The notes under the pieces: generated by a model
What the model was told of the DNA's origin: nothing
What the model saw: only the letters and a program-made list of their open reading frames with translations
Databases searched by the model: none
Translations under genes and position numbers: made by a program
Shown: positions 4,596 to 33,193 of the stretch, piece after piece
How positions within the stretch are numbered: position 1 is the first letter of the stretch
Layout: every line of letters starts with the position of its first letter
NCBI GenBank assembly: GCA_913061285.1
Contig: CAJXVR010000040.1
Span: 1 to 33,193 of the forward strand
Direction: 5' to 3'
Origin: an uncultured Verrucomicrobiota bacterium
GTDB taxonomy: Bacteria > Verrucomicrobiota > Verrucomicrobiia > Limisphaerales > AAA164-E04
Length of the DNA stretch: 33,193 bases

Positions 4596-4668
4596 GGGGC
4601 TGGCGAAGGTTTCCTGCTTACCGGACGAGAGGAAGGTATGATTCGAATCGAATGCTTGTGACCCAAGG

Positions 4669-4715
4669 TGGCTGCAAGCAGCCCACACTCCATTGAGTGC
4701 GAGAGCCTGCTCTCG
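4669..4715. repeat. Two adjacent hairpins between sulfatase and beta-helix genes
   Basis: GGCTGC-AA-GCAGCC at 4670-4683 is followed by GCGAGAG-CCTG-CTCTCGC at 4698-4715. Both stems are perfect. There is no T-tract, so this is not a classic intrinsic terminator. It looks more like an intergenic REP-type element. A reading frame across it (4568-4762, - strand) appears to be a by-product of the repeat. Confidence 0.45.
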
Positions 4716-12358: not shown

Positions 12359-12423
12359 AATGACAAGAATAGACGGTACTGAGACCTCGGTGGATCGAGA
12401 CAATTCCAATTGGGATGGATGGT

Positions 12424-17884: not shown

Positions 17885-17962
17885 TGTTCGAGTTTGATTG
17901 AGATTCTGTTTGAGGGGGCCGTGGCTGCCGAGTCGTGCTACCTGAGACGAGGGTCCTTGATT

Positions 17963-18172
17963 CTAGTCGGAATCTCCCTCGTCCCATGCGCCCTCTTCTA
18001 AGTTCCGGTCCAGATCCGTCCGTTCCTTTGGGAGCCAAATGAGGTGGTCAACATAGTCGCGGGGTTGGTCTAGCTCGACGTCTCGGATTTCGGCATGAAT
18101 GGCTGCCTCGGCTGTTTTTTCATCGATTGGGAGGTTTGGTTCGAGTTCAGTGAGGTCATTCTTCATAGTCAT
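17963..18172 (-). CDS. Small acidic protein, unknown, leader of the 989-residue gene
   Basis: A 69-residue, strongly acidic protein (MTMKNDLTELEPNLPIDEKTAEA..., ending EEGAWDEGDSD) with no signal or membrane segment and no family I recognise. A second in-frame ATG two codons in (18166) is an equally possible start; no clear ribosome-binding site is visible. Support comes from its position: it is the first frame downstream of the two-block promoter element at 18305-18334, and it precedes the 989-residue gene by 78 bp on the same strand. It could be a small partner or chaperone of that protein. A non-coding leader is the alternative. Confidence 0.55.
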   Translation of the reverse strand: MTMKNDLTELEPNLPIDEKTAEAAIHAEIRDVELDQPRDYVDHLIWLPKERTDLDRNLEEGAWDEGDSD

Positions 18173-18304
18173 TGCGGTTCGTGTGGGTGGGCTCCGTTGC
18201 AGCCCCGCGAGATCGGTGTGTGCCTGCTATTCTTAATCAGTAATAGTGTGGGTCTCGTCATGATCCTTCTGCTTCGGCTCGCGAGGGGCTTGATTCCCCG
18301 ACTT

Positions 18305-18334
18305 TACCTGCGAAGAAAATCGGGAGAGGGGTCA
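18305..18334 (-). promoter_or_regulatory. reb-type two-block promoter element, copy 3
   Basis: The minus strand reads TGACCCC, N15, CGCAGGTA: the element found upstream of rebB-1 and rebB-4, with one C missing from the second block. It lies about 133 bp upstream of the 69-residue gene. A GGGG/CCCC hairpin follows closely downstream on the presumed transcript. The rest of 18173-18474 shows no other feature I can name. Confidence 0.7.
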
Positions 18335-18474
18335 GTAAATTGAGCGTTTTCTGCTAGGGGGAGCATCGCTTCAGAATTGATCCTTCGTCAGGATTGCCCC
18401 TGTACTTGTTGATGCTCGCCGTTGGGAGGGCTTCCCGGTATCCTTCGGGCGATCCGAACAAACGAAGAAAGAGA

Positions 18475-18873
18475 ATGGACCCGAGACTAGAAGAGGCGTT
18501 TGTAGCAAGTTTGTACCCGTTGGCCGACGGGTTGCCGGCGCCGCCGATCGATTCCAACCAAGTGCAATCCCGGACAAAACTGGAATTTCTCAAAGCCTTC
18601 TATCGAACGAATCTGGCTCTTGAGAAATTATTGAAGGCTCGCAAGAAGCATGGTCCGGAGGGAGAAAAGGCGTGTCGCGAGTACGTTGCTGATCTGAAGG
18701 AGGCGCTCTTAAATCGGGATAATCTCGAGGAAGAGTATCGATCTCAGGGAATTTGGGTTGAACCCGAACATGAAGGAGATTTCGTATCTAATCTGCGATT
18801 CTTCTTCCCTCCAGGTTCTGTTGGACGAGGCAAGTACGTGTTCACGACCGAAATTGAGTTGCCTCAGTCCTAG
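18475..18873 (+). CDS. Hypothetical protein, helical, in R-body island
   Basis: A 132-residue soluble protein starting at ATG 18475, preceded by a weak AAAGAGA Shine-Dalgarno; the frame runs 27 codons further upstream to 18394. Residues about 32-100 are predicted helical and rich in Lys, Glu and Arg (TKLEFLKAFYRTNLALEKLLKARKKHGPEGEKACREYVADLKEALLNRDNLEEEYRSQ). The C-terminus is more beta-like with FFFPPGSVGRGKYVFTTEIEL. No family is recognised. It lies alone on the plus strand among minus-strand genes, and its stop is 10 bp from that of the convergent 18884 gene. No copy of the reb promoter element precedes it, although a poor partial match (TTGCCCC, N16, CGCC) lies at about 18394-18420. Confidence 0.62.
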   Translation: MDPRLEEAFVASLYPLADGLPAPPIDSNQVQSRTKLEFLKAFYRTNLALEKLLKARKKHGPEGEKACREYVADLKEALLNRDNLEEEYRSQGIWVEPEHEGDFVSNLRFFFPPGSVGRGKYVFTTEIELPQS

Positions 18874-18883
18874 TTCGAAAATG

Positions 18884-19357
18884 CTAGTCAGATTCAGTCT
18901 TCGAGTCAGGTTTTGGTTGTGCCTGCGCGGGAGCTCCACGTCCAAGCATCGATGAGAGTGTCGCGAAGAGACCTTTGATATCTTCTGCCCCCTCTTCGGC
19001 AAGCTTTTCGGCCGCCTGTGGTTGGGATGAAAGGATGGAAACCAAAGACCTATATTGTTCTTGGGACTGAACGAAGCTCTTGGTCGCAGAATGGAAGAAC
19101 GTATTCAGCTTGGCATCGATTCTAGGACCTCTCATAGGTGGTGTATTTTTCAAATTGTTCTCCGACTTATTAACGTTTGACTGTCTCTTCAAGGCCTCTT
19201 CCATTCGCTTATCGGCATTGAGCTTGACGCCCTCGGCAGCTTGATTGATTGAGCGCTGCGAACGATTCGTATTTCGTCGCAGATCTCGACCAATGCGCGC
19301 CACGGTTCTCCGGAGTTTTCGGTGAATCGCGGGGGTGTTAGAACGAGGCTTACTCAC
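18884..19357 (-). CDS. Hypothetical basic/helical protein overlapping rebB-3
   Basis: A 157-residue protein if translation starts at GTG 19357, which overlaps the rebB-3 stop as GTGAGTAA and implies translational coupling. A GTG at 19303 with a CCGGAG sequence upstream would give 139 residues. The longer open frame back to 19477 lies inside rebB-3 and is not credible. The N-terminal half is Arg/Asn/Lys-rich and helical (RKLRRTVARIGRDLRRNTNRSQRSINQAAEG). The middle contains AKLNTFFHSATKSFVQSQEQYRSLVSILSSQPQAAEKLAEEG, and the tail is Pro/Ala then acidic. There is no signal peptide and no known family. As the last gene of the reb transcript it is a candidate accessory factor for R-body assembly. 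Confidence 0.65.
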   Translation of the reverse strand: MSKPRSNTPAIHRKLRRTVARIGRDLRRNTNRSQRSINQAAEGVKLNADKRMEEALKRQSNVNKSENNLKNTPPMRGPRIDAKLNTFFHSATKSFVQSQEQYRSLVSILSSQPQAAEKLAEEGAEDIKGLFATLSSMLGRGAPAQAQPKPDSKTESD

Positions 19358-19703
19358 CAGTAGGGAAGTTCTTGAGTATGTCCCCAGAGTAGGTGCCGAT
19401 GGTCTTAAAGGTCTCCGCTGCGTTCTCAATCGTCTGTTGGGCCTGCTGAATGACGGCCGCCATTTTTGGGTCGCCATCGGAGATGAGTTTTGCGGTTGCG
19501 ACGCCCATTGCTGTGGTCGAAAGGGTGTTGATGTTTCTTAAAAGGCTGGACGCATCTTGGACGGTCATAGCCATGGTTTGAGACACGGCTTGGTAGGCGC
19601 TGCCTGATCCATGAATTCTCGTTGTTTTGGGATCGATTACCATTCTGTTAGTGTTTTCGACGGTTTCGAGGACTGTAGGAGTAATGACTTCAGTTTTTGG
19701 CAT
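19350..19703 (-). CDS. Divergent RebB-family R-body protein (rebB-3)
   Basis: A 117-residue protein starting MPKTEVITPTVLETVENTNRMV; an ATG three codons earlier (19712) is also possible. It keeps the RebB layout: ITPTVLETVENTN in place of NPQITDAVTQTN, then GSAYQAVSQTMAMTVQDASSLLRNINTLSTTAMGVATAKLI in place of the MGxxYQ...NAxxAQQQ...TTMGV core. It then continues with an extra helical C-terminal segment (AAVIQQAQQTIENAAETFKTIGTYSGDILKNF). RebB-type proteins polymerise into R-body ribbons. This is the most divergent of the four copies and might be a capping or minor ribbon component. It lies 57 bp after rebB-2 and overlaps the next gene by 8 bp. Confidence 0.8.
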   Translation of the reverse strand: MPKTEVITPTVLETVENTNRMVIDPKTTRIHGSGSAYQAVSQTMAMTVQDASSLLRNINTLSTTAMGVATAKLISDGDPKMAAVIQQAQQTIENAAETFKTIGTYSGDILKNFPTGE

Positions 19704-19760
19704 AACGATCAAGTTGGTAGGTTTGGATTAATCTTGGCACGAGCGAAGCGATTCGAGTTC

Positions 19761-20060
19761 TTATGGGCTCGTTTCTTGGGGAACGTTTGATCCCGAGTTG
19801 CCTGCTTGCGTGTCGCTGCTCTCGGGGCTCATTCCTCCCGCCTCGATGATCTTGGCGCAAACGGTGCCGACCACTGAGGTGCCAATTTGTTGCATTGAGC
19901 TTTGGGCAATGACAGCGTTCTGCATGGAGATTCCGAGCGCATGGGCGAGATTCTGATAGACGACGCCCATCGATTGTGCCGGGGCCGCTGCGACGACACT
20001 GACGTTGGTCTGTGTGACGGCGTCAGTGATCTGCGGGTTGACTTTTTCTGAGTCAGACAT
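19761..20060 (-). CDS. rebB: RebB-family R-body structural protein (rebB-2)
   Basis: A 99-residue protein starting at ATG 20060 (MSDSEKVNPQITDAVTQTNVSVV); the frame extends further upstream but the family begins here. The RebB core is clear: VNPQITDAVTQTN, then AAPAQSMGVVYQNLAHALGISMQNAVIAQSSMQQIGTSVVGTVCAKII. A polar Ser/Gly/Asn tail of about 25 residues follows. Family knowledge: small RebA/RebB/RebD-type proteins form the insoluble coiled ribbon of R-bodies in Caedibacter. It is transcribed in the same direction as rebB-1 but separated from it by 482 bp. No copy of the shared promoter element lies immediately upstream, so it may be read through from rebB-1 or use another promoter. Confidence 0.92.
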   Translation of the reverse strand: MSDSEKVNPQITDAVTQTNVSVVAAAPAQSMGVVYQNLAHALGISMQNAVIAQSSMQQIGTSVVGTVCAKIIEAGGMSPESSDTQAGNSGSNVPQETSP

Positions 20061-20542
20061 GGCTTTCTTGGGTGTCGAATTGGTGCTGCTACGCTTGGGG
20101 TCGATACGTATCCGCATCGACCTCAATCCTTCTCCTCGGTGCGTTTTCTCCGCTTGGCTCTGGAACGACCGCTGGCAAGGGGAAGGCTAGCATCCTAGCA
20201 CGATCCTTCGTTTTGAATTCATTCGGTCAATCGTGCTTTTATAGGGGAGACTCACGCTCACGCCAAAGACTGCCGTATCCAACATATTCTCAATTTGCCG
20301 GTTAAATATGGAGTATTGAATGAGAAGAGCGAGCGAATGGGGGTGGCGAAGGGCGCCAAAGCTCTCAGCTCGCGCTGAGATATTCGGAACCCTCGTTACC
20401 CGAGAGAGGGACGAAGCCCGATTCGTAGCATCGTCCTCTTGAGTGTTTCGTTTCGTTCTTACCATTGAAACGGGCAAGTTAGATCGCTGCGGGAGTCTCC
20501 CTCCTAATCAGTTTCGAACGTATTGGTTCTAACGATGAGGTC
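20061..20542. other. 482-bp intergenic gap between rebB-1 and rebB-2
   Basis: No convincing gene is seen; the 96-codon frame at 20187-20477 (-) has no family resemblance and no usable start signal. The stretch contains a perfect hairpin, TCTCAGC-TCGC-GCTGAGA, at 20363-20380, next to a palindromic GGCGCC (about 20352-20357). It could be a long untranslated linker with RNA structure, a processing site, or a dispersed intergenic repeat. Confidence 0.5.
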
Positions 20543-20815
20543 TTACTTTCCGTCGTCACCATCCGCGTTATCAGCGGCCTGGCCGCCTGCGGCCGATCCG
20601 AGGGTATACAGTAGGGTGACACCCATGGTCGTCGCCGCCTGATGAATGACGTTCGTCTGTTGTTGGGCCGTGACTGCGTTTCCGGCTGCAAGTCCGGTGG
20701 CATGAGAAATACTTTGGTAAAGATTTCCCATTGCTGTTGCTGGGGCTTCGGCAACGACTTTAACATTGGTTGAAGCGACCGCGTCTTTGATTTGTGGATC
20801 CACTGAATCAGCCAT
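20543..20815 (-). CDS. rebB: RebB-family R-body structural protein (rebB-1)
   Basis: A 90-residue protein (MADSVDPQIKDAVASTNVKVVAEAPATAMGNLYQSISHATGLAAGNAVTAQQQTNVIHQAATTMGV...) with a full RebB core, followed by a Gly/Ala-rich segment and an acidic tail (AADNADGDDGK). Upstream is AGAAGAAAAAAG, a weak Shine-Dalgarno. It is the closest paralogue of rebB-4 (29372-29638): both share the NxYQSxxHxxGLAAGNAVxxQQQxNVIHQAxTTxG core. The two-block promoter element at 20895-20925 lies 79 bp upstream, and the ECF sigma factor gene is divergent from it. This is probably the major ribbon subunit. Confidence 0.94.
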   Translation of the reverse strand: MADSVDPQIKDAVASTNVKVVAEAPATAMGNLYQSISHATGLAAGNAVTAQQQTNVIHQAATTMGVTLLYTLGSAAGGQAADNADGDDGK

Positions 20816-20894
20816 AACTTTTTTCTTCTAGTTTGTTGTTATTTTAGTGATGTTTTCGTTCTGAGGAGTCAATCGATGACTTTCTCGTCATTAT

Positions 20895-20925
20895 TACCTG
20901 GCGATGAGTCGTGATTAAGGGGTCA
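20895..20925 (-). promoter_or_regulatory. reb-type two-block promoter element, copy 1
   Basis: The minus strand reads TGACCCC, N15, CGCCAGGTA, followed by ATAAT. It matches copy 2 upstream of rebB-4 at all 16 block positions with identical spacing. It lies in the 136-bp region between rebB-1 and the divergent ECF sigma factor gene and points toward rebB-1. The block distance is compatible with -35 and -10 elements of an ECF promoter. Confidence 0.8.
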
Positions 20926-20951
20926 GTTTTCTTAGATTTTTTAACCTTGGT

Positions 20952-21506
20952 ATGAGCGAAGAGATACAGATCGAAGATGTGGGCGCCTATATGGGGGAAC
21001 TCCGATTGGTGGCTCAACGCCTATTACGTTGCGAGGCAGATGCCGATTCGGTCAGGCCAACGGCTCTTGTGATTAGTGCCCTGCGTCGCAACAAAGGGAG
21101 AGAGCAGGAATGGGATGAGGTGTCGTGGAAGGATCGCCGGTACTTTTTTGGCGCGATGCATCAAGCGATGAGGCGGTCGTTGATTGATAGGGCAAAGAAG
21201 AAAAAGGCGAAGAAGCGTCCCCCATTGAAATTCGTCGAACCTGAAGATCTTAACTTCTATGATCTGGCGGATACCTTAGAAAGTGCTCCGGATCAGATTG
21301 ATGCTCTCACCAGTGCCCTTGGATGGCTTGAGGGAGAGGAACCAGGGCTTGCTCAAATCGTGGAGTATCGTTTTTTTAGTGGGCTCACAGTGGAACAGAC
21401 GGCGAAAGTACTCGAAGTGAGTGAAAAGACCATCAAGCGGCGTTGGAGCCAGGCAAAGCTTCTGCTCTACGATCGTATTTTGGGAATTCTCAATGAGGCA
21501 GCCTGA
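20952..21506 (+). CDS. ECF-family RNA polymerase sigma factor
   Basis: A 184-residue sigma factor of the ECF type (sigma70_ECF group, common in Planctomycetota and Verrucomicrobiota). The N-terminal region 2 includes WKDRRYFFGAMHQAMRRSLIDRAKKKKAKKR, the -10-binding helix and basic stretch. The C-terminal region 4 is helix-turn-helix (EYRFFSGLTVEQTAKVLEVSEKTIKRRWSQAKLLLYDRI). It is divergent from rebB-1 and followed after 83 bp by a giant Ser/Thr kinase on the same strand. Sigma/kinase pairs of this kind are known in PVC bacteria, where phosphorylation can switch the sigma factor. It is the obvious candidate to read the two-block element found four times in this island. That link is inference. 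Confidence 0.93.
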   Translation: MSEEIQIEDVGAYMGELRLVAQRLLRCEADADSVRPTALVISALRRNKGREQEWDEVSWKDRRYFFGAMHQAMRRSLIDRAKKKKAKKRPPLKFVEPEDLNFYDLADTLESAPDQIDALTSALGWLEGEEPGLAQIVEYRFFSGLTVEQTAKVLEVSEKTIKRRWSQAKLLLYDRILGILNEAA

Positions 21507-21589
21507 GCAAGTCGATGAGTGCTTTATTTACTGTCGTAATTTAGCTCTTCATCTTTGTTTCGATTGAGTTGCGAGGCTAGGGTTTGAGC

Positions 21590-24500
21590 ATGGATTCACT
21601 TGTTGATTGGAGTCAGGTGTGTCGCCTGGTGGAAGAATTCGAACAAGTGCCTATTGATCGCTTGCCCGAACGACTCGCGGCTTTGGAGTCAGAGGCAGGG
21701 CTCGACCCGAGGGTTCTCCATTTCGTGCGACTCAACTTCCGAATCGCTCATATTCCTTTTGAGATCACCCGCGGAACAATTCTTAAAGAAAAGTATCGGG
21801 TCGAGGAGAAGTTGGGGCAAGGTGGTATGGGAGTGGTTTACCGAGCCACGCACTTAGGAACGGGCCGCGATGTTGCCCTGAAGTTTATCCACCCCTCATT
21901 GACGAATTGTGGGAGTGAAGGGCGCTTTCAACAGGAAATTCTCACCTTAGGAAGGCTGGAGCACCGGGGCATCGTTCAAGTGTACGATGCTGATCAGGCC
22001 CCTCTCGGGCAGAACCAGTCTCCGGTAGTCTTCTTCGCAATGGAATATATTCGAGGGCGATCTCTTCTCCACTATGTCCGAGAGGCGGAGTTGCCCCCTC
22101 GTGAATCGATTGAATTGTTCGCGGAGATCTGTGAAGCGCTTCGGTATGCGCATGATCGGAGGATCATCCATTGTGATTTGAAGCCCTCAAATATTTTATG
22201 TCGTTCCGATGGATCGGTCGTGATCTTGGATTTTGGGCTCGCTTCCGTTGGGAATAGCTTTCTGAACACGGTCGTCGGAGATCGCTCAGGGGGTGTTGAT
22301 TGCTCCGGGACCCCGGCCTACATGAGTCCGCAGCGGCTCTTGTACGGTGGGGGGAAACATCCAAGCGTCGAGGATGATGTCTATTCTCTAGGCGTGGTGC
22401 TCTTTGAAATGTTAGCCGGAGAGTTTCCTTTTGAGCTTGAACGACCCCATACCTTCGAGACGATCCGGCAAGCCGTGAGCTCGCAGCAGCCAAGACTGCT
22501 GGGGGACCTTGATCACCGATTTAAGGGGCCAATCGAAAACCTAGTTCAAAAGGCGATGCATCCAGATCCCACGGAGCGCTATTCCAGTGCGACTGCCTTG
22601 AGCAAGGCCATCGGGAGATTGAAGTGGGGGGCAGACACCGCTGGAGCTGTATCTGGGACCGCTTCAATGGGAGCCGTGAATGAGTCTTGGATGCCAGAAG
22701 CAGGGAAGAAGATACCGTCCACAAGTTGGATCTTGAAATCCCATCTCGGGAACGGGGCTGTAGGGCAGGTGTGGAAGGCTGATCATGAGACCCTAAAATT
22801 AAGTCGAGCGTTTAAATTTTGTTTCGATCCGCAGAAGGTCCGAATGCTGAAACGCGAGATGACCGTGTTTCGACTGCTTCAACAGAGGGCGCTTCCAGCA
22901 ATTGTACGCTTTCATGAAGTCTCTTTTGATGATCCGCCTTTCTATCTGATGATGGACTATGTTCCTGGGGCCGATCTCGAAAGGTGGCACGAAACAGCGC
23001 AACCGACGCTGGACTGTTTGACCCTGTTGATTGCTTCTGTGGCAGAAGGATTGCAGCGGGTGCATGACATCGGAATCATTCATCGTGATATCAAACCTTC
23101 AAACATTCTGATTGAAGAACGGAGCGGTGAGAAGGAGCCGCTGAGTTTCTTAGCAGATTTTGGGGTTGGGAAAGTGGAATCCGATCCTGAGCTGGATCGG
23201 GTTACCCGGTGGGGATTTACCGAAACCCTCATCGGCTCTGAAAATCAAACCCTGGTCGGAACTCAAATGTATATGGCTCCCGAATTGTTTCGCGGAGAGG
23301 ACGCTTCCTGCCGAAGCGATATCTATTCATTGGGGGTGGTGCTATTTCAATGCCTTGTTGGTGATTTTAGTCGTCCAATTACGGCCGACTGGGCGGAATC
23401 CATTGAAGACCCATTGCTACGGGATGATTTGTCTCGATGTTTGGCGACCTCTCCTGAGAACCGGTTTGCTGGCGCGGCTCAATTGGCGGAACATTTGAGA
23501 GGTCTGGCTCATCGCCGGCAAGTGCTTGCGGATTCCCTCCTCGAACAACAAAGAAGTGAAAATGCTGCCTATCGATCCGGAGCCCTTCGGGTGGGAGGGC
23601 TTGCTACGCTCGCGACATTCTTTGTCTTGGGCTTGCTCTACGTCGCTTATTTCAATCATAGCAAGGCGAGCTTAGCGAGCGCTCGACTCATGCGCCAATC
23701 TGAGAAAGAAGGCCAGCGGATCGCTAGCTTGAAGATCTTGGAGGAGGCGACTCGATGGATTTCTCCGGGACCTGCCTTTGTGTCCGAGGCCGCAAGCGCG
23801 CTCGCTGTTCTAGATCTTGAACTGCTTCCTACAAGGGATCTCCCTGATAAGGAATGGCATGATGTGGTGTATGCGTTATCCCGCGATGTCTTCGTGAGTC
23901 AGAGGAGTGATAAGACGATCGCGGTCCATGGGCTGTCTCCCGATGAGATTGTCTTTCAAAGTGATTTAGATCCTCTCACTCGGTCGATTTTTCTCTCAAG
24001 GAGGGGAGAACTTCTTGCGGTTTCTGGCAAGAACGCAGACGGAGCAAATTTCCTAGAATTGTTTCGAACGGAGAATCCTAATGACAAGATGGCGTTCCCT
24101 TTAGAACGAGAGGCTTTGTTTGTCGCATATGATTCTCAAGTTTCCCAGGTCCACGTTTCTCTCGCTGGTGGGGTGCTCACTACGTTCCAAGTGCCGGATG
24201 GAAAAGTGCTCTGGTCAATCGCGACCGAAGAACCAACGCGTATTGTAAACTACTCCAAACTTGCCGTTTCTCGTTCCGGTGCTCTAGTTGCCGCAGGAAG
24301 TGTTGATTCACACGAAACCCGAGTTTTTGAGACGAGTACGGGACGATTGGTTGCCAAGCTCTATCACCGAGGGCCCGTTAATGATCTCGCTTGGTTGCCT
24401 GATCGGTCTGAGCTACTCGTCGCTTGTGAGGACGGTAGCGTCTATCATTGGGACCCAGCTAACCCAAGGGAGCCAATATCACGACGAGAGCTTCACCGAG

Positions 24501-26437
24501 GTTCCGTTCTGCTAGTCGCATGCCATCCAACGCTTTCGTTGGTTTCTTCTCTCGGAACTGATGGGGAATTGTTGCTGTGGGAATTGGGGGGGGATCGGAA
24601 AGTTTCTGTTGATCTTTCCTCCTCGATAGCATTGGGGGGAAAGCAACTGCTCTTTAGCCCTGATGGTAACGTTCTCCGTTTTGTCGGTGCTGATGGTTTC
24701 TATGAAGAACGTCTGGTTCACTCCAACGAGTATTTTAGAAGTTGGAACGAATCTCAGGATATTCTTGGTTGCGGGTCGATCCCTCATACGACGGTAGGAT
24801 ATGTGTATGGGAACGAAGCGATTCGATTCTTTGATCTACGATCGGGAGAAATTCTGGGCCAGATTGCGGCCCCAGGATTGCGGTCTTTGATCCTAAGAAA
24901 CTCTTCAAGGATCAGTCTTATCGGATCTCTTGCCAGTGGTGTTTTTAGCTGGTCCTTGTCTCTAGATTTAGAGAAGCGGAAGATCTCTGTCGGTGCTCCG
25001 TCTCCGCTTCCTATTCCTCAGGACACCTGGGGGATGGTCTTATCGAATGACCAATCGACTCTGTACGTCACGCATCGAGATCATATCCACGTCAAAGATA
25101 TCGAAGCGCATGGTCTCATGGGATTGACGCAACAGCTGATTCCATTCAACGACGGTAATCCTGACATCGTCTACCTTGATCTTGCCCATCGCTCGCTCGT
25201 TGCTTCGAGTGTCGCTGGCAGGTTTTGGCATCAGGATCTTGATGAGGAATTTTCGAGTCGGGAATGGAGAGAGCTCGATCGACTTGAATTCATCCTTGGA
25301 GTGACGGGTGATGATCGTGTTCCGTTTCGAAATGCGACGAGTGTTCTGGAGGGGACGGTAGCGTTCCAGCAGAAGGACAAAAAAATTCGCTGGCATGCAA
25401 TTCCTTCGGTGTCAAAGGCTGGTTTCGTGTTTCGTGGGGATGGAGATACCGTCCGAGTATCGCCTGAAGGCTCTGAAGCTGAGGCGATGAACTTTGTCAG
25501 TCCACTCGGAGGAGAGGTGCTTGCTGTCGAGGTTGATGATTCGTGTCGCTGGTTGGTTATTGGCACGGCTCGAAATGATGTGAGTATTTGGAACCTGGGT
25601 GCGCTGCAGGATCGACTTGAGTCCATGGGATGGCCTATTACTAACTCGTCCAATCAGTTCGAACCCGATAGTGGGAATGTTTGGTCGCTAGTGATTGAGG
25701 CAGGTGAATTCGAGCATGGAGAGAATTCAGTGCTTGAACGAATCGAATCTCTAAGTCGTCAGATTGTCGCTGGCGAGGATCGAATAAAATCGCACTTCAT
25801 CCGGGGCTTCGCCTATCAATCGCTCCGCGGTGGCGCGGCCCACGGAGTGTCTGATTTTCAGACAGCTTGCGCCCTGCCTGCGAACAAGGTTGAGGAGTAT
25901 CACTATCGAGGAATGGCGGCTTTTTACTTAGATAATTATGTGGCTGCCGTAGCGGATCTCAAGGAGGGGAAAGCCATTCTCGAGAAGGGAAATCTCAGCT
26001 ATGCCAATCAGTTTCAATTGTATTTGATCCTGTCACGCACCTTATCGCTCCTATCAGCGGCTGATCGTGACGAATCGCTCGCCTTATCGTGCGCTCAAAC
26101 CCTGGTCTCCATGAGGCCACACTCGGCCCTCGCAAACGCCGTTTTGGCCTATGCCCTGTTGCGGATCGGAGATCCATCCGGTGCGAAGCGTCTTTTAGAG
26201 GAGTATCAAGAGGCGCAAGAGAGCAGGGACTCGCCAAGTTTTTGGTACTTCTCTGTCCTTGCAAGTCTCGGATTGAATCAGCCATTGCTTGCCCGTGAGG
26301 AATTCAAACGAGCCGAGGAGTTGTGGCAGATTTCAGGGAAAGTGACTCGGGGACGAAGCCTTGTCGCGCGCCTTCGGTCTGAAGCCGTTGTCGCATTAAA
26401 AGGGTCTAGTTTGGCAGGTGATACGGTGGGGGATTGA
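21590..26437 (+). CDS. Dual-domain Ser/Thr protein kinase with beta-propeller and TPR sensor
   Basis: A 1615-residue protein from ATG 21590. Kinase 1 covers about residues 69-345: GQGGMGVVY loop, VALK lysine, IIHCDLKPSN catalytic loop (Cys in place of the usual Arg of HRD) and DFG. Kinase 2 covers about 380-640: GNGAVGQVW, FKF lysine, IIHRDIKPSN, DFG and an APE-like APELF. Both retain the Lys, catalytic Asp and DFG, so both may be active. A transmembrane segment follows at about 668-690 (GGLATLATFFVLGLLYVAYF), then WD40-like blades over about 750-1345 (GSVDSHETRVFETSTGRLVAKL, GSVYHWDPANP, GELLLWEL), then TPR-like helices at about 1400-1580. Cytoplasmic kinases joined to an external propeller/TPR sensor suit a receptor that controls the upstream sigma factor. 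The 3' end overlaps the next gene. Confidence 0.95.
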   Translation: MDSLVDWSQVCRLVEEFEQVPIDRLPERLAALESEAGLDPRVLHFVRLNFRIAHIPFEITRGTILKEKYRVEEKLGQGGMGVVYRATHLGTGRDVALKFIHPSLTNCGSEGRFQQEILTLGRLEHRGIVQVYDADQAPLGQNQSPVVFFAMEYIRGRSLLHYVREAELPPRESIELFAEICEALRYAHDRRIIHCDLKPSNILCRSDGSVVILDFGLASVGNSFLNTVVGDRSGGVDCSGTPAYMSPQRLLYGGGKHPSVEDDVYSLGVVLFEMLAGEFPFELERPHTFETIRQAVSSQQPRLLGDLDHRFKGPIENLVQKAMHPDPTERYSSATALSKAIGRLKWGADTAGAVSGTASMGAVNESWMPEAGKKIPSTSWILKSHLGNGAVGQVWKADHETLKLSRAFKFCFDPQKVRMLKREMTVFRLLQQRALPAIVRFHEVSFDDPPFYLMMDYVPGADLERWHETAQPTLDCLTLLIASVAEGLQRVHDIGIIHRDIKPSNILIEERSGEKEPLSFLADFGVGKVESDPELDRVTRWGFTETLIGSENQTLVGTQMYMAPELFRGEDASCRSDIYSLGVVLFQCLVGDFSRPITADWAESIEDPLLRDDLSRCLATSPENRFAGAAQLAEHLRGLAHRRQVLADSLLEQQRSENAAYRSGALRVGGLATLATFFVLGLLYVAYFNHSKASLASARLMRQSEKEGQRIASLKILEEATRWISPGPAFVSEAASALAVLDLELLPTRDLPDKEWHDVVYALSRDVFVSQRSDKTIAVHGLSPDEIVFQSDLDPLTRSIFLSRRGELLAVSGKNADGANFLELFRTENPNDKMAFPLEREALFVAYDSQVSQVHVSLAGGVLTTFQVPDGKVLWSIATEEPTRIVNYSKLAVSRSGALVAAGSVDSHETRVFETSTGRLVAKLYHRGPVNDLAWLPDRSELLVACEDGSVYHWDPANPREPISRRELHRGSVLLVACHPTLSLVSSLGTDGELLLWELGGDRKVSVDLSSSIALGGKQLLFSPDGNVLRFVGADGFYEERLVHSNEYFRSWNESQDILGCGSIPHTTVGYVYGNEAIRFFDLRSGEILGQIAAPGLRSLILRNSSRISLIGSLASGVFSWSLSLDLEKRKISVGAPSPLPIPQDTWGMVLSNDQSTLYVTHRDHIHVKDIEAHGLMGLTQQLIPFNDGNPDIVYLDLAHRSLVASSVAGRFWHQDLDEEFSSREWRELDRLEFILGVTGDDRVPFRNATSVLEGTVAFQQKDKKIRWHAIPSVSKAGFVFRGDGDTVRVSPEGSEAEAMNFVSPLGGEVLAVEVDDSCRWLVIGTARNDVSIWNLGALQDRLESMGWPITNSSNQFEPDSGNVWSLVIEAGEFEHGENSVLERIESLSRQIVAGEDRIKSHFIRGFAYQSLRGGAAHGVSDFQTACALPANKVEEYHYRGMAAFYLDNYVAAVADLKEGKAILEKGNLSYANQFQLYLILSRTLSLLSAADRDESLALSCAQTLVSMRPHSALANAVLAYALLRIGDPSGAKRLLEEYQEAQESRDSPSFWYFSVLASLGLNQPLLAREEFKRAEELWQISGKVTRGRSLVARLRSEAVVALKGSSLAGDTVGD

Positions 26438-26945
26438 TTCAATAATTGACATTTTTTGTCCTGAGATTATACGTCCTTGCGTGAGCTCAAGATCATCAGG
26501 AAAAAGCAATCCCTCCCGCCCTCACATTCCAATCTCATCTGACGATCAATTCCGTTGGGTCGTCTGTGAGGCGATTGAACGTGTTGAAAAGATTAACTAC
26601 TACTTAAAAACTGCTTGCAACCATGAGCTCTATAATGAACGCCTTCGTAAGGGAGCAAAACAACTCTTGGAGACCTTGGTAAGGGATCTGGCGAGTTTTG
26701 CCCGGTCAAAACCTTTTGGGCTTCACCCGGTTGAAATTGAGTTCGTTTGTGTGAAGAATGGCATTGCTGCAGACAAGGTTTTATCAATGAAGAACTTTCT
26801 GAAGGCACTGTCTGGATCGCCCGAAAATCTGCCGAGTCTGATTCGAAGCCTCATTGTTAAGATTGGAGAATCTCAGTCGGGTAAAGACTCTAGTTCCTCT
26901 TCTTCATCGGTGGTCGTTGATCCTCTTCTTCCGGGAGCAAAGTAG
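26418..26945 (+). CDS. Hypothetical protein overlapping kinase end
   Basis: A 175-residue frame beginning at GTG 26418, 20 bp inside the kinase gene, suggesting translational coupling. A GTG at 26481 would give 154 residues; neither has a good ribosome-binding site. After a Ser/Pro-rich, probably disordered N-terminus comes a helical soluble domain (QFRWVVCEAIERVEKINYYLKTACNHELYNERLRKGAKQLLETLVRDLASFA), then a Ser-rich tail (GKDSSSSSSSVVVDP). No family is recognised. The 3' end overlaps the convergent 26890 gene by 56 bp. Co-transcription with the sigma factor and kinase hints at a regulatory role, such as an adaptor or anti-sigma-like partner, but nothing in the sequence proves it. Confidence 0.6.
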   Translation: MIRWGIDSIIDIFCPEIIRPCVSSRSSGKSNPSRPHIPISSDDQFRWVVCEAIERVEKINYYLKTACNHELYNERLRKGAKQLLETLVRDLASFARSKPFGLHPVEIEFVCVKNGIAADKVLSMKNFLKALSGSPENLPSLIRSLIVKIGESQSGKDSSSSSSSVVVDPLLPGAK

Positions 26946-27564
26946 CCAGGGGTTGAGTTAGGATGTTTGGAGGAGGGGGCTCCTTTTCCTTTTTTGCTGC
27001 AAAGAGGTGCTCAGGATCCAGTTCTTTGCTCGAAATCTGGGCTGAGTGGAGTTCTTCCCAATAAAGCCCGCTTTCGTAGATAATACCGGAGTGGGAAAGG
27101 TTGAGATGGACTCCATGGTTGGGGCATCTAACGATTGGGACGACGCTGCCAACGCGTTTGATTTGCGCGTCCTTATACTCAGCATAGGTGATCGGAGCGC
27201 CCTTCCAGATATCGCGCTCGAGGGCCCCAATGCAGCGTTCATAGCTATATGAGGTCTTGGGATCGGAGTAAACGGTTCGGAGGATACCATCGGCTTCTGG
27301 GCCTCTTATGCCGAGCGATCTTGCTCTTGGGCAAATGAGAGTTTTTGGGTTGGCCAGGAATTCAGGCACCAGATCTGATAACCAGTTGGGATAGCGCTGG
27401 TAGCGTTTATAGTGGGCCTGAATTGCTTCATATAGAAATGAGAGTTGACGTCGACAGTCTTGCTTTTCACGGTCGGGCTCTGCATGAAGTGACACGGTTG
27501 CTAGAGCGAGACCAATCACGAAGAATTGCAAGTGAAGAACGATTGGTTTTCTTCTTAGGCTCAT
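26890..27564 (-). CDS. Exported hypothetical protein, PVC pseudopilin-like core
   Basis: A 224-residue protein from ATG 27564 (MSLRRKPIVLHLQFFVIGLALATVSLHAEPD signal peptide); an ATG at 27582 adds six residues. After the signal comes CRRQLSFLYEAIQAHYKRYQRYPNWLSDLVPEFLANPKTLICPRA, a layout seen in PVC proteins related to the processed domains of type II pseudopilins (helix, YPxxLSxL, CP). Late in the protein is PIVRCPNHGVHLNLSHSGIIYESGLYWEE. The C-terminal 45 residues are Lys/Glu/Pro-rich and low in complexity. It converges on the 26418 gene with a 56-bp overlap and is divergent from the GT9 gene. Its function, and whether it belongs to the R-body island, are unknown. Confidence 0.75.
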   Translation of the reverse strand: MSLRRKPIVLHLQFFVIGLALATVSLHAEPDREKQDCRRQLSFLYEAIQAHYKRYQRYPNWLSDLVPEFLANPKTLICPRARSLGIRGPEADGILRTVYSDPKTSYSYERCIGALERDIWKGAPITYAEYKDAQIKRVGSVVPIVRCPNHGVHLNLSHSGIIYESGLYWEELHSAQISSKELDPEHLFAAKKEKEPPPPNILTQPLATLLPEEEDQRPPMKKRN

Positions 27565-27642
27565 GATCAATGATGCGTCCATTGTGAAGCGGCTACGGAA
27601 CGATACTTAACTAATGGCCTAGAGACCAGGCAAAGGTTATTC

Positions 27643-28680
27643 ATGAATACCCAAGAGTTGCTGTTACGAAATCATCAGTCGCCTGGTGATGTGCTCATGT
27701 TGACGGCTGCTGTTCGGGACTTGCACCGTTGCTATCCAGGACGATTCCGGGTCGCGGTTGATACCAGCTGTCCCTTTCTCTGGGAAAATAATCCCTATCT
27801 CGTGTCGCCATCTGAGGTGCCCAATGCTCGAGTGATTCAATGTCACTATCCAATGATATCACGATCCAATCAGGAACAGGTGCACTTCTTAGAGGGGTTC
27901 ATTGAGTATCTTAATCAACAGTTGAAATTGCAGGTCGAATTAACCGAGGTTTGTGGAGACATCCACTTAGGCGCCGAAGAACGTTCGTGGCCGAGTATGC
28001 TGCAGCCATTCTCAATGTCAGCTGTCCCTTATTGGATTATCGTCGCTGGGGGTAAGTATGATTTCACAATCAAATGGTGGCATACGGATCGTTTTCAGGC
28101 AGTGGTTGAGGCGCTGAAGGATGAAGTCGTCTTTGTTCAGGTTGGAGAGTGGAGACACTACCACCCTCGGCTGGAGGGTGTCTTAGATCTCAGAGGACGG
28201 ACGCAGGGACGAGAGATTGTCAAGTTGATGCACCACGCGACGGGTGTCTTATGTCCTGTCACTTTCATGATGCATCTAGCCGCCGCCGTCGAGCCTGTGG
28301 ATGTTGAACATGGACCTCGGTCTTGTATCGCCATTGCTGGCGGGCGTGAGCCCGTGTCCTGGGAAAAATACCCCAGCCATGTCTTCTTGGATACGATTGG
28401 GAAGTTGCCGTGTTGCGCTCACGGCGGCTGTTGGCGATCTCGGTTTGAGCCGCTCGGAGATGGGGACGAGAAGGATTCAGCTGATCGCTTGTGTGTGGAT
28501 GTTGTTGATCGGTTGCCTCATTGCATGGCGATGATCGAGCCCGAGGAAGTGGTGAAGGCTATTCGGAAAACTCTGATGAGAAGCGAAAATCGAATTGCTG
28601 AGAAAGATTTGTATCGTTTGTCTGAAAAGCGAAACCGGGATCCGGTCCGCGAAGCCCTGCGCCGTGCGACTTTGTCTTGA
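27643..28680 (+). CDS. Glycosyltransferase family 9 (heptosyltransferase-like) with Cys-rich C-terminus
   Basis: A 345-residue cytoplasmic protein. The N-terminal Rossmann-like domain starts LLLRNHQSPGDVLMLTAAVRDLHRCYPGRF, the GT9 signature region. The second domain has WWHTDRFQAVVEALKDEVVFVQVG, DLRGRTQGREIVKLMHHATGVLCPVTFMMHLAAAV and IAGGREPVSWEKYP, which form the donor-binding site. A Cys cluster follows (LPCCAHGGCWRSRFEP... LCVDVV... LPHCMAM), matching a GT9 subgroup. It is reminiscent of the metal-binding finger of autotransporter heptosyltransferases. It transfers an NDP- or ADP-linked sugar to LPS or to a protein; the acceptor cannot be read from sequence. It is divergent from the exported 26890 gene and lies between the kinase and rebB-4, so protein glycosylation within the island is possible. 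Confidence 0.88.
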   Translation: MNTQELLLRNHQSPGDVLMLTAAVRDLHRCYPGRFRVAVDTSCPFLWENNPYLVSPSEVPNARVIQCHYPMISRSNQEQVHFLEGFIEYLNQQLKLQVELTEVCGDIHLGAEERSWPSMLQPFSMSAVPYWIIVAGGKYDFTIKWWHTDRFQAVVEALKDEVVFVQVGEWRHYHPRLEGVLDLRGRTQGREIVKLMHHATGVLCPVTFMMHLAAAVEPVDVEHGPRSCIAIAGGREPVSWEKYPSHVFLDTIGKLPCCAHGGCWRSRFEPLGDGDEKDSADRLCVDVVDRLPHCMAMIEPEEVVKAIRKTLMRSENRIAEKDLYRLSEKRNRDPVREALRRATLS

Positions 28681-28684
28681 GTGA

Positions 28685-28719
28685 GGAGGGAATGGAGGGC
28701 GATGGCCTCGATTCCCTCC
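28685..28719. terminator. Hairpin between convergent genes, possible bidirectional terminator
   Basis: A perfect 9-bp stem, GGAGGGAAT with ATTCCCTCC (28685-28693 and 28711-28719), in the 50-bp gap between the GT9 stop and the stop of the convergent 98-residue gene. There is no T-tract in either direction, so function is uncertain. Confidence 0.5.
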
Positions 28720-28730
28720 CCGCGGGGCGT

Positions 28731-29027
28731 TTAGTCGACGGTGATACTTATCTGGTCGCTCTCGATTGAGCCGCTGACTTTTTGACTGATATTGATCTTG
28801 TCGTTCCGGCGGCAGCTGAATCCTTCTTGAAGGTCGATATCGGTGAATCTGAAACTACCGTCGATAGCAGCTGTTTTTTCGTCTTGTTTGCCATTCTTAT
28901 CTTCAACAGTGACCCTTGCTTCTCCCTTAACTGCCCCTGCTTTTCCTTGGATGACCGGGCCTCCGGTCGAGATGGTTCCTTGTTCGGCAAAAATTTTTGA
29001 TTCGATGGGCTTTGGACTTTGTTCCAT
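28731..29027 (-). CDS. 98-residue hypothetical protein, beta-rich, divergent from rebB-4
   Basis: A 98-residue protein with no signal peptide (MEQSPKPIESKIFAEQGTISTGGPVIQGKAG). From about residue 35 it reads like a small Ig-like or carboxypeptidase-regulatory-like beta domain: VKGEARVTVEDKNGKQDEKTAAIDGSFRFTDIDLQ...RRNDKINISQKVSGSIESDQISITVD, with the DGSFxFTDxDL strand-turn typical of such folds. Shine-Dalgarno-like GAAAGAAA precedes the ATG. The two-block reb promoter element (copy 4, 29167-29197) lies about 140 bp upstream, so it is probably expressed with the R-body genes. It could be a scaffold, adhesin-like or cargo component. No named family is recognised. Confidence 0.7.
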   Translation of the reverse strand: MEQSPKPIESKIFAEQGTISTGGPVIQGKAGAVKGEARVTVEDKNGKQDEKTAAIDGSFRFTDIDLQEGFSCRRNDKINISQKVSGSIESDQISITVD

Positions 29028-29166
29028 GGTTGGTTTCTTTCTTTTCAGTTTATTCGCTGTGATTGGGAGTCCCAGCGAGGCTTGTGTCTGCGAATCGGTC
29101 TTGGTGCTTTGATTCCCTCCGCCCTAGGTTGACTTTGCCGAAGGGAGATCGATTCGCTCCCATATC

Positions 29167-29197
29167 TACCTGGCGGACTATTTGCGGCGGGGGGACA
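29167..29197 (-). promoter_or_regulatory. reb-type two-block promoter element, copy 4
   Basis: The minus strand reads TGTCCCC, N15, CGCCAGGTA, then GATAT. It differs from copies 1 and 2 by one base in the first block, with identical spacing. It points toward the 98-residue gene (start 29027). It shares the 344-bp intergenic region with copy 2, which points the other way. Confidence 0.72.
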
Positions 29198-29276
29198 GCG
29201 CATGCAAAATAATCGTTCCGTTTCATCGATATGCCGGGATTCGGGCAATGGAACATCGGTGGGGTATCAATTGACG

Positions 29277-29307
29277 TGACCCCATAAGAATCATTCTGCG
29301 CCAGGTA
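29277..29307 (+). promoter_or_regulatory. reb-type two-block promoter element, copy 2
   Basis: TGACCCC (29277-29283), N15, CGCCAGGTA (29299-29307), followed by TCATT. It is identical to copy 1 in both blocks and in spacing while the N15 differs, which argues for functional conservation rather than simple duplication. It lies 64 bp upstream of rebB-4. Confidence 0.8.
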
Positions 29308-29371
29308 TCATTGGTCGGGCTTGTTTCTTGACCGCCGTCAGACTCGCGAATCAATCGAAAATAGAATCAAT

Positions 29372-29638
29372 ATGCCAAGTGAACCGAATAGCCAAATTAA
29401 GGATGCTGTTACAGCGACGAATGTTTCAATCTGCGCCAATACACCGGCCCAGGCCATGGGGAATCTCTATCAGAGTGTTGCCCATTCGGCGGGACTAGCC
29501 GCGGGAAATGCCGTCATCGGCCAACAGCAGGCGAATGTCATTCATCAGGCCTGTACCACGCTCGGAACGACGATGCTCTATTCCCTTGGGGCAGCGGCAG
29601 GGGGGATGGCAGCCAATAATGCTGGGGTTAAGAAATGA
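29372..29638 (+). CDS. rebB: RebB-family R-body structural protein (rebB-4)
   Basis: An 88-residue protein starting at ATG 29372 (MPSEPNSQIKDAVTATNVSICANTPAQAMGNLYQSVAHSAGLAAGNAVIGQQQANVIHQACTTLGTTMLYSLGAAAGGMAANNAGVKK). The frame is open to 29321, but family members start here. It has a full RebB core with a Gly/Ala-rich C-terminus and lacks the acidic tail of rebB-1. It lies 8.5 kb from the other reb genes, on the opposite strand, but carries the same promoter element as rebB-1. It is likely a second major ribbon subunit; two different subunits would fit Caedibacter, where RebA and RebB are both needed. Confidence 0.93.
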   Translation: MPSEPNSQIKDAVTATNVSICANTPAQAMGNLYQSVAHSAGLAAGNAVIGQQQANVIHQACTTLGTTMLYSLGAAAGGMAANNAGVKK

Positions 29639-29661
29639 TCATTTCCTGGGGGAAGTGACTG

Positions 29662-29681
29662 AGAGCCCGGTCTCCGGCTCT
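29662..29681 (+). terminator. Possible weak terminator after rebB-4
   Basis: Stem AGAGCC with GGCTCT around an 8-base loop (CGGTCTCC), followed by AGATTT. It is short and only mildly T-rich downstream. Confidence 0.3.
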
Positions 29682-29767
29682 AGATTTGCCTGATCGACCG
29701 GGAGGCGCTCCGTATCGTGCCCCTTCGTTTTGTTGTCATGGCTGTATTCGTTCGGTAGGGTGATCCT

Positions 29768-31066
29768 ATGAACCGGAGACATTTTATTGGAAGCCTTGCT
29801 TCAGCTGGGGCGGCGCCAGCCTTTGCTACAGCCGCCGAAAACGAGGGAAGTTCCGGATCGGAAAAGAACTCATTGAAGGTTCTCAGTCCTCCGGTGGTTC
29901 AGAACCCGACTGAATCGTCCTTTTCTGTCTCATGGATGGTGAGTGGGACGGCAAGCGGCTGGGTAGAATGGGGGACGAGTGAGGCGCTCGGTCAGGTATC
30001 ACGCCCTGCGCATCACGGTTTGATGGGCTTGAGTCAATATGCGCTCGCAGCTCGCGTCAGCGGTATTCCTAAGGATGCGGAGATCTTCTATCGTGTTGTT
30101 ACCGTGCCGATTCATTACAAGAGTGCGTATTCGATCGAACGCGGTGTGCCCCTTGTTGGTGAGATCCGGCGACTTCGGCTTCCGTGCGCGGATGCAGCTT
30201 CTTGCTCGATGGTCGTGGTGAATGACACCCACGACCGCAACGAGACCATCGCGGCTCTCTCCCAACGAGTGGCAGATCTCGATCCAGATGCCTTGCTCTG
30301 GAACGGTGATGCAGCGAATACCTTTGATGATCCAGTGCAAGTGGCTCGCATCTGCCTGACACCTGGCCAGGATCCGCAGCATGCAGCGGCGGGAGGCTGG
30401 GCCTCGACCCGACCACTTTTCTTCACCTTAGGAAATCATGATGCTCGCGGGCAAAGTGCGCGTATGCTACCAGAGGTTTTGACGCCCTGGCCCTTGACTG
30501 CGGGCGACCCCGATGGTTTGGCTCCAACGCCTCAGGGTGCAGGACGTTATTGTTTTACCAAGCGCATGGGCCCTCTGGCGATCGTCTGCTTGGATACAGG
30601 GGAGGATAAACCGGATTCTCGGGATGTCTGGGGAGGCATGGCCGCATATGAACCCTACCGGGAATCCCAGAAAGAATGGTTGATCAAGGCGCTTCAAGCA
30701 CCAGAGATCGCGAAGGCGCCTTATCTCCTCACATTTTGTCATATTCCTTTGAGGGGACGCCCCGGTGATAATGATGGGATGGGAGAGACCGGATATGCTG
30801 GGTTTTCCGGCTTTGGGCAACAGCTTTGGATGCAAACGCTCGTCGACGCCGGCTGTCAAATGATTCTAAGTGGACACACCCACCGGTCTCGAATCGATGA
30901 GCCCTCTGATGCGTTTCCGCTTTATCAGGTGGTTGGTGGCGGCCCTCAACTGGATCGTGCTCGCTTGATCCGGATTCATGCGGAACGACATGAATTACAG
31001 GTCATCATTGAGGATGTTCAAGGTCAAGAACGGGAGCGAGTGATGCTCTATCCTCGAACGGTCTAG
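29768..31066 (+). CDS. Tat-exported metallophosphoesterase (purple acid phosphatase-like)
   Basis: A 432-residue protein with a twin-arginine signal (MNRRHFIGSLASAGAAPAFATAAEN). Residues about 40-115 form a fibronectin-III-like domain (VVQNPTESSFSVSWMVSGTASGWVEWG ... IFYRVV), as in purple acid phosphatases. The calcineurin-like catalytic domain then shows the five metal motifs: NDTHD (about residue 152), WNGDAAN (about 179), LGNHDARG (about 221), FCHIP (about 323) and SGHTHRS (about 368). It should hydrolyse phosphomonoesters or diesters in the periplasm or outside the cell. It begins 129 bp after rebB-4 on the same strand, with a possible weak hairpin between. It looks like an ordinary phosphorus-scavenging or catabolic gene rather than part of the R-body system. 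Confidence 0.93.
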   Translation: MNRRHFIGSLASAGAAPAFATAAENEGSSGSEKNSLKVLSPPVVQNPTESSFSVSWMVSGTASGWVEWGTSEALGQVSRPAHHGLMGLSQYALAARVSGIPKDAEIFYRVVTVPIHYKSAYSIERGVPLVGEIRRLRLPCADAASCSMVVVNDTHDRNETIAALSQRVADLDPDALLWNGDAANTFDDPVQVARICLTPGQDPQHAAAGGWASTRPLFFTLGNHDARGQSARMLPEVLTPWPLTAGDPDGLAPTPQGAGRYCFTKRMGPLAIVCLDTGEDKPDSRDVWGGMAAYEPYRESQKEWLIKALQAPEIAKAPYLLTFCHIPLRGRPGDNDGMGETGYAGFSGFGQQLWMQTLVDAGCQMILSGHTHRSRIDEPSDAFPLYQVVGGGPQLDRARLIRIHAERHELQVIIEDVQGQERERVMLYPRTV

Positions 31067-33173: not shown

Positions 33174-33193
33174 CTGTCTCTTATACACATCTC
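33174..33193 (-). other. Nextera adapter remnant at contig end
   Basis: The reverse complement of the 19-bp Nextera mosaic end (33174-33192) plus one further adapter base. It is artificial sequence; the genome ends at 33173. Confidence 0.97.

Follow-up and report, generated by a model that had tools for sequence, protein, structure and literature searches.

The analysis of a 33,193-nt stretch of DNA from an uncultured Verrucomicrobiota bacterium (the window, meaning the whole stretch that was analyzed) supports the two-block element TGACCCC-N15-CGCCAGGTA as a real, directional, and locus-specific feature with the geometry of an extracytoplasmic function (ECF) promoter, situated beside an ECF sigma factor gene in what its genes suggest to be an R-body (reb) locus, R-bodies being coiled protein ribbons. 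An earlier note on this DNA had presented the element as the mark of a dispersed R-body regulon; the observation itself is confirmed and its interpretation partly supported, with "dispersed" being too strong a word for a set that spans about 11 kb. The adjoining gene for a membrane kinase, which that note overlooked, changes the mechanism to be considered. With moderate confidence, we favor a kinase-gated ECF regulon driving the R-body locus, in which the element would act as promoter, the locally encoded sigma factor would read it, and the kinase would switch the sigma factor on.

Pattern searches recovered all four copies of the element as the earlier note had described them.

20895-20925, minus strand: copy 1, upstream of rebB-1; exact, 0 mismatches
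29277-29307, plus strand: copy 2, upstream of rebB-4; exact, 0 mismatches
29167-29197, minus strand: copy 3, upstream of the 98-amino-acid (98-aa) gene; one substitution
18305-18334, minus strand: copy 4, upstream of the 69-aa/989-aa pair; block 2 lacks one base

All four are intergenic, in a window whose intergenic share is 10% by the gene list of this analysis, and each is oriented toward its next downstream gene. The distance from block 2 to the start codon is 79 nt for rebB-1, 64 nt for rebB-4 (with ATG 29372 as the assumed start), 139 nt for the 98-aa gene, and 132 nt for the 69-aa gene. Copies 2 and 3 stand back to back, copy 2 facing rebB-4 and copy 3 the 98-aa gene, and copy 1 lies inside a 136-base gap common to rebB-1 and the sigma factor gene. 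Two conserved blocks at a fixed spacing, intergenic and pointing toward genes, correspond to what is expected of ECF promoters, with copy 4 off by one base. The 31-base span of the blocks, which would run from about -37 to -7 if transcription started 6-7 bases downstream, fits such promoters (e.g., those of Bacillus SigW and E. coli RpoE) and bears out the proposal that the spacing suits ECF -35/-10 recognition.

When up to three mismatches were allowed, the search of the window returned the two exact copies and the one-substitution copy, plus one three-mismatch site in a coding region. Copy 4 reads TGACCCC-N15-CG_CAGGTA and is the sole TGACCCC-N14-17-CAGGTA of the assembly; compared without a gap it scores 13/16, which was equalled in 2 of 200 shuffles of its own region, and taken alone it is weaker than the others. 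Upstream of the remaining 20 genes on the list, the best matches are 8-11 of 16, the same as in shuffles. Sulfatase and surface-protein genes fall within this background range (8-11/16), in agreement with the earlier remark that this region holds no full copy.

Rarity in the genome points in the same direction. Across the whole assembly (8,016,410 bases, 570 contigs, completeness 88.94), TGWCCCC-N13-17-CGCCAGGTA occurs at three sites, all of them in the window (copies 1-3), and the backwards control gives 0. Base counting predicts 0.004 exact matches for the whole genome and 0.18 at one mismatch or fewer, and at this latter tolerance, with N15 fixed, four sites were found, three of them in the window. 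The fourth (C3:61184, CGCCAGGAA) begins 47 bases beyond the end of a gene and lies near open reading frames (ORFs) read here as transposase-like, and the sole two-mismatch site genome-wide sits within a coding sequence. At three mismatches or fewer, the real pattern yields 39 matches versus 54 for the backwards control, so the weaker matches are background. The earlier note had held that occurrence at background frequency across the genome would speak against its proposal; instead, the three TGWCCCC-N13-17-CGCCAGGTA sites and the three Pfam RebB matches of the assembly are all on the contig of the window. Among 319 other genomes of the order, searched at spacings of 14-16, there were five matches, one each in five genomes (backwards control, 2), every one of them within an open frame 750-3018 bases long.

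Because the pattern had been derived from these same sites, the block shape was left free in the statistical tests. A scan of 189 two-block shapes of 16 bases over 24 hand-listed 200-nt upstream regions, at one mismatch or fewer, identified one three-gene family in the real sequence, namely rebB-1, rebB-4, and the 98-aa gene, and none of 1285 dinucleotide shuffles of the 24 regions contained any three-gene family. With automatic gene calls, the window yielded the same single family, and no three-gene family was found in 20 other 20-kb stretches of the same genome, these being shorter than the window and holding 7-26 called genes each versus 24.

The reb genes of the locus, together with a further gene of the rebB-1 run, are as follows.

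20543-20815, minus strand: rebB-1, 90 aa; PF11747, E 1.6e-26
19761-20060, minus strand: rebB-2, ATG start at 20060, with a longer TTG frame from 20126; PF11747, E 1.2e-20
29372-29638, plus strand: rebB-4, 88 aa; PF11747, E 6e-21; start as in P0008
19350-19703, minus strand: divergent Reb-like gene; no Pfam RebB match
18884-19357, minus strand: last gene of the rebB-1 run, for a protein without a family match; start uncertain, the longest frame being 18884-19477

The three RebB genes score 92.6, 73.7, and 74.7 bits, where the curated cut-off is 24, and are the only RebB genes that Pfam detects in the assembly. ORFs whose best match is the Reb-like gene at 19350-19703 are present in 27 of 78 reb loci of other organisms, which marks it as a real member of reb clusters; being missed by Pfam RebB, this type could found a new family model. 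RebB carriers amount to 2 of 320 genomes in the order and 4 of 387 in an even draw of the phylum (own genome included in both counts). The own genome measures 8.0 Mb versus 4.8-4.9 Mb for the three other searched genomes of the genus, which are without RebB, and the locus may be a gained accessory region.

The predicted regulators are encoded next to rebB-1.

20952-21506, plus strand: ECF sigma factor, 184 aa; PF07638, E 4.9e-26; predicted reader of the element
21590-26437, plus strand: Ser/Thr kinase with two kinase domains, WD40, and TPR; predicted activator of the sigma factor
26418-26945, plus strand: ORF of 175 aa that overlaps the kinase gene at its end; no family match

The PF07638 match agrees with the claim that an ECF sigma factor is encoded beside copy 1, and two region 4 models also match the protein (E 1.5e-6 and 2e-6), giving it both ECF regions 2 and 4. 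Its gene is divergent from rebB-1, and the kinase gene, a Hanks-type neighbor, follows 83 nt downstream on the same strand, probably in one operon with the 175-aa ORF. The kinase has one hydrophobic segment (residues ~664-690), predicted by hydropathy to span the membrane. Ordinary ECF sigma factors carry D-A-E-D in region 2.2, and the sigma factor of the window has RPTA instead, with Thr37 at the position of the ECF43 phosphosite (a Thr in 9 of the 10 sequences aligned, counting the window's). The linker contains a further threonine, Thr108, which is conserved among the five closest sequences, again including the window's. According to the available text of published work, ECF43 members lack DAED and are thought to be activated by a neighboring kinase (PMC8999054), and their consensus is QTTA with a phosphorylated Thr, the linker residue Thr106 being crucial (PMC13147305).

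Starting from what is observed (four oriented intergenic copies and their placement, the sigma factor and kinase genes, the RPTA motif, and the kinase domains), the kinase-gated regulon can be sketched as follows. TGACCCC would serve as the -35 and CGCCAGGTA as the -10 of what is likely a promoter, to be recognized by the ECF sigma factor encoded beside rebB-1. This sigma factor would be made beforehand and would stay inactive until phosphorylated by the membrane Ser/Thr kinase encoded right after it, which would sense a signal and act on the sigma factor at Thr37 and Thr108 as candidate sites. Once phosphorylated, the sigma factor would direct RNA polymerase to the four promoters, and the rebB-1/rebB-2/reb-like run, rebB-4, the 98-aa protein, and the 69/989-aa pair would be co-expressed as one R-body response. 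That the sigma-kinase operon has no copy of its own fits control by activity rather than autoregulation. The signal might be contact with a protist grazer, a guess drawn by analogy from R-bodies and the Xanthomonas EcfK/PknS system.

Genes outside the Reb family that the element would bring into the regulon are the following.

28731-29027, minus strand: 98-aa gene, downstream of copy 3; all-beta in one confident model
17963-18172, minus strand: 69-aa acidic ORF, first gene after copy 4; no family match
14915-17884, minus strand: 989-aa protein, second gene after copy 4; no family match

A search of 5.8 billion sequences for homologues of the 98-aa protein gave only three further protein clusters (88% on a 9,765,388-base contig, 76% on a 10,495,379-base contig, and 67% on contigs no longer than 1918 bases). 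The closest relatives of the sigma factor (96% and 90% identical) are likewise on contigs of 9,765,388 and 10,495,379 bases, and these equal base counts suggest that the 98-aa gene and the sigma factor tend to occur together, as would be expected of a shared regulon. In structure prediction, one of five models of the 98-aa protein was confident, with a predicted local distance difference test (pLDDT) score of 82 versus 36-44 for the others, and its PDB matches, often to Ig/FN3-like or adhesin domains, were weak (E of 0.005 at best and none <0.001); the protein is for this reason described as likely all-beta and no more. The 989-aa protein had no match in Pfam, NCBIfam, PADLOC, or solved structures, and eight proteins without family assignment had none among defense-system models.

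Several observations weigh against a kinase-gated regulon read by the local sigma factor. At the level of the element, copy 4 has an altered spacing in block 2, and copies are missing upstream of the sigma factor gene (9/16) and the kinase gene (10/16) as well as of rebB-2 (9/16) and the Reb-like gene (11/16), all at background level; since rebB-2 begins 482 nt after rebB-1, its membership in the rebB-1 transcript is only putative. When the whole window was shuffled and both strands were scanned with the one shape of the earlier note, 1 of 40 shuffles gave a three-member family, and it is therefore the upstream placement, not the bare match, that carries the significance. The same scan also yields some three-gene two-block family in 36 of 81 other reb loci, chiefly, in those inspected, from tandem reb genes or low-complexity sequence, so that such a family is not diagnostic alone outside this genome. 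At the level of the sigma factor, Thr37 is replaced by Pro in P0053, a relative of 82% identity, and this residue need not be decisive, given that EcfK with Thr51 changed to Ala still restores amoeba resistance in the available text of a report of which one figure title calls T51 and T106 required (PMC13147305). The nearest NCBI model, TIGR02999, which does not describe ECF43 specifically, gives the sigma factor 96.5 bits, below its curated cut-off of 126.15, and marks it as a divergent member. The genome contains 29 matches to PF07638, which leaves other sigma factors as possible readers of the element. The joint occurrence of the 98-aa gene and the sigma factor could likewise be due to nothing more than close relatedness. 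Moreover, the RebB-1 search listed no match on contigs of 9,765,388 or 10,495,379 bases; the listing contains the window's own cluster with three members whose sources are not shown, so those genomes may carry RebB-1.

This abundance of PF07638 proteins, taken with the lack of an element copy at the sigma-kinase operon, also speaks for the view that the element is a promoter, or a bipartite operator, of a regulator encoded elsewhere and that the adjacent sigma-kinase pair controls other genes. A further point in its favor is that Azorhizobium reb genes are described as having the regulators PraR (repressor) and RebR (activator) with their own sites (in the available text of PMC5527310). We nevertheless consider this view rather unlikely, as the three TGWCCCC-N13-17-CGCCAGGTA sites are confined to the contig that carries this sigma factor gene, with copy 1 inside that gene's own upstream gap. 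The blocks are also non-palindromic and have the same orientation relative to the gene in every copy, and the two long contigs with homologues of the 98-aa protein match in base count those with relatives of this sigma factor.

The copies could instead be relics of a local duplication of rebB-1 and rebB-4 plus chance matches, with no shared regulation. These two genes are paralogues whose coding DNA is 70% identical and whose spacers agree at 7 of 15 positions, and the local alignment score of their leaders, reached by 40 of 500 shuffles, amounts to a slight excess; the family obtained in one whole-window shuffle likewise leaves some room for chance. The blocks of the pair, however, are identical at 16/16 amid near-random flanks (7/40 upstream and 20/60 in the leader, ungapped), and the copy at the unrelated 98-aa gene retains 15/16 in the blocks with spacers agreeing at 1 and 3 of 15 with those of the rebB copies. 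Together with the absence of a family from the 1285 upstream-region shuffles and the 20 other genome stretches, this renders the explanation improbable for the set as a whole. The earlier statement that simple duplication is not involved therefore holds for the 98-aa gene, whose putative promoter bears no sign of co-duplication, and is less secure for the rebB-1/rebB-4 promoter pair, which may stem from it. Least probable of all, in our judgment only barely conceivable, is that the blocks work at the RNA level, as a leader element common to transcripts that start at promoters farther upstream. Their position 64-139 nt before the start codons is one where leader elements can sit, but a fixed 15-base gap of variable sequence is more typical of DNA recognition, and no Rfam match at gathering scores was found in 17800-29800. 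Sites of sigma-70 type are at background (1 vs 2.3 expected in 17800-21600; 3 vs 2.4 in 26800-29800), with none just upstream of the blocks.

The kinase-gated regulon resembles two systems described in the available text of published reports, EcfK/PknS of Xanthomonas citri and EcfP/PknT of Vibrio parahaemolyticus, in which ECF43 sigma factors are activated by Hanks-type kinases (PMC8999054, PMC13147305). In these systems, as in the window, the ECF gene stands beside a Ser/Thr kinase gene, and the DAED motif is altered with Thr at the phosphosite. EcfK controls an anti-amoeba weapon, a type VI secretion system (PMC8999054, PMC13147305), whereas the predicted targets here are R-body genes. Unlike both systems, the sigma factor of the window is divergent, with RPTA instead of QTTA and a TIGR02999 score under the cut-off, and its kinase combines two kinase domains with WD40 and TPR, phosphorylation being a prediction here. 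A precedent for an ECF sigma factor driving reb genes, which supports the kinase-gated regulon in this respect, is provided by Pseudomonas aeruginosa PA14, where rebP1 expression depends on FecI2, whose gene belongs to the reb cluster (PMC8322103); in contrast to the window, the available text of that report presents FecI2 together with a transcription factor, RcgA, and not a kinase. Sigma factor genes beside reb clusters have been noted before (PMC3583457, PMC13430693, as far as their available text goes), and in the accessible part of one survey a single Verrucomicrobiota taxon is counted with three or more reb genes (PMC13430693).

ECF control of reb genes and kinase-activated ECF control of an anti-amoeba weapon are thus already known, and their combination is new to the literature searched: a partial search (titles and abstract starts) found no report of a kinase-gated R-body system. 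If true, the present case would be the first kinase-switched R-body system in the literature searched and would unite ECF-driven R-body genes with the kinase-activated ECF sigma factors that control an anti-amoeba weapon, so far described separately. According to the available text of an earlier study, the trigger of R-bodies and the non-Reb proteins responsible for their toxicity are largely open questions (PMC3583457). With a kinase-gated sigma factor, the search for the trigger would become one for a receptor that can be tested, and a private promoter element would identify the cell's own R-body partners (in this case the 98-aa protein and the 69/989-aa pair), providing a sequence rule for finding the long-sought non-Reb partners. 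More speculatively, and in our estimate doubtful, a surface-sensing receptor with two kinase domains, WD40, and TPR would gate a private sigma factor, and the whole regulon (confined to 11 kb of an 8-Mb genome, with three near-perfect promoters plus one variant) would form a self-contained R-body weapon, of which the 98-aa protein, a lineage-restricted beta-sandwich protein in this proposal, and the 989-aa protein would be candidate ribbon partner and cargo.

Beyond this genome, the check in related reb loci that the earlier note had proposed indicates that the element is no general mark of such loci. None of 78 reb loci of other genomes has it at spacing 15 with two mismatches or fewer, and widening the spacing to 13-18 gave only two matches (L027 and L030), both at spacing 18. 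In most of the G388 contig (L155), searched at three mismatches or fewer, two places match: one with two mismatches at spacing 15, inside a 509-aa frame read here as gatA, and one with three mismatches at spacing 17-18.

The metagenome-assembled genome (MAG) OFTM167 (L007/L095) has a verrucomicrobial cluster with three rebB-1-like genes, one rebB-2-like gene, and one reb-like gene in the same order as in the window. Ahead of this cluster (G415:C255) lies a sigma-like gene (L007 2745-5048) that has a TPR tail and is of a sigma type different from the window's, and after it comes a subtilase with PatG-type domains (L007 11904-13709). Its contig has no match to the window's kinase, and the whole of it (G415), like the first 20 kb of the 47-kb G537 contig, holds no element at three mismatches or fewer (in OFTM167, two or fewer in block 1). 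On G537:C407, from a genome of the same taxonomic order, L153 (3102-18585) contains a reb array with eight RebB matches and no match to the window's sigma factor or element; some 8-10 kb upstream lie a kinase-like ORF (3102-4691), weakly matching the window's kinase, and an ORF read as ECF-like (4861-5388). ECF sigma-kinase pairs with QPTA in region 2.2 are found at L034 9932-16827 (Tahibacter) and L064 9572-20255 (a Lysobacteraceae MAG), ~3 and 6 kb from a RebB-domain gene, respectively, and in L034 this neighborhood may be due to chance because a PEP-carboxylase gene lies between. A 45%-identical sigma factor in G004 was set aside, its genome being without a RebB match and its 8-kb contig without a match to the window's kinase.

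Two further features of the window concern its end and the flank of the R-body region. The window and the contig end, at 33174-33193, in transposon adapter sequence (a 19-base sequence found at 33174, which we take to be a Nextera-type adapter), and the last bases are probably a sequencing artefact. A few kb from the R-body region, a surface-like protein of 1236 aa (8699-12409) has a BclA C-terminal match along with weak TNF-like and Ig-like matches.

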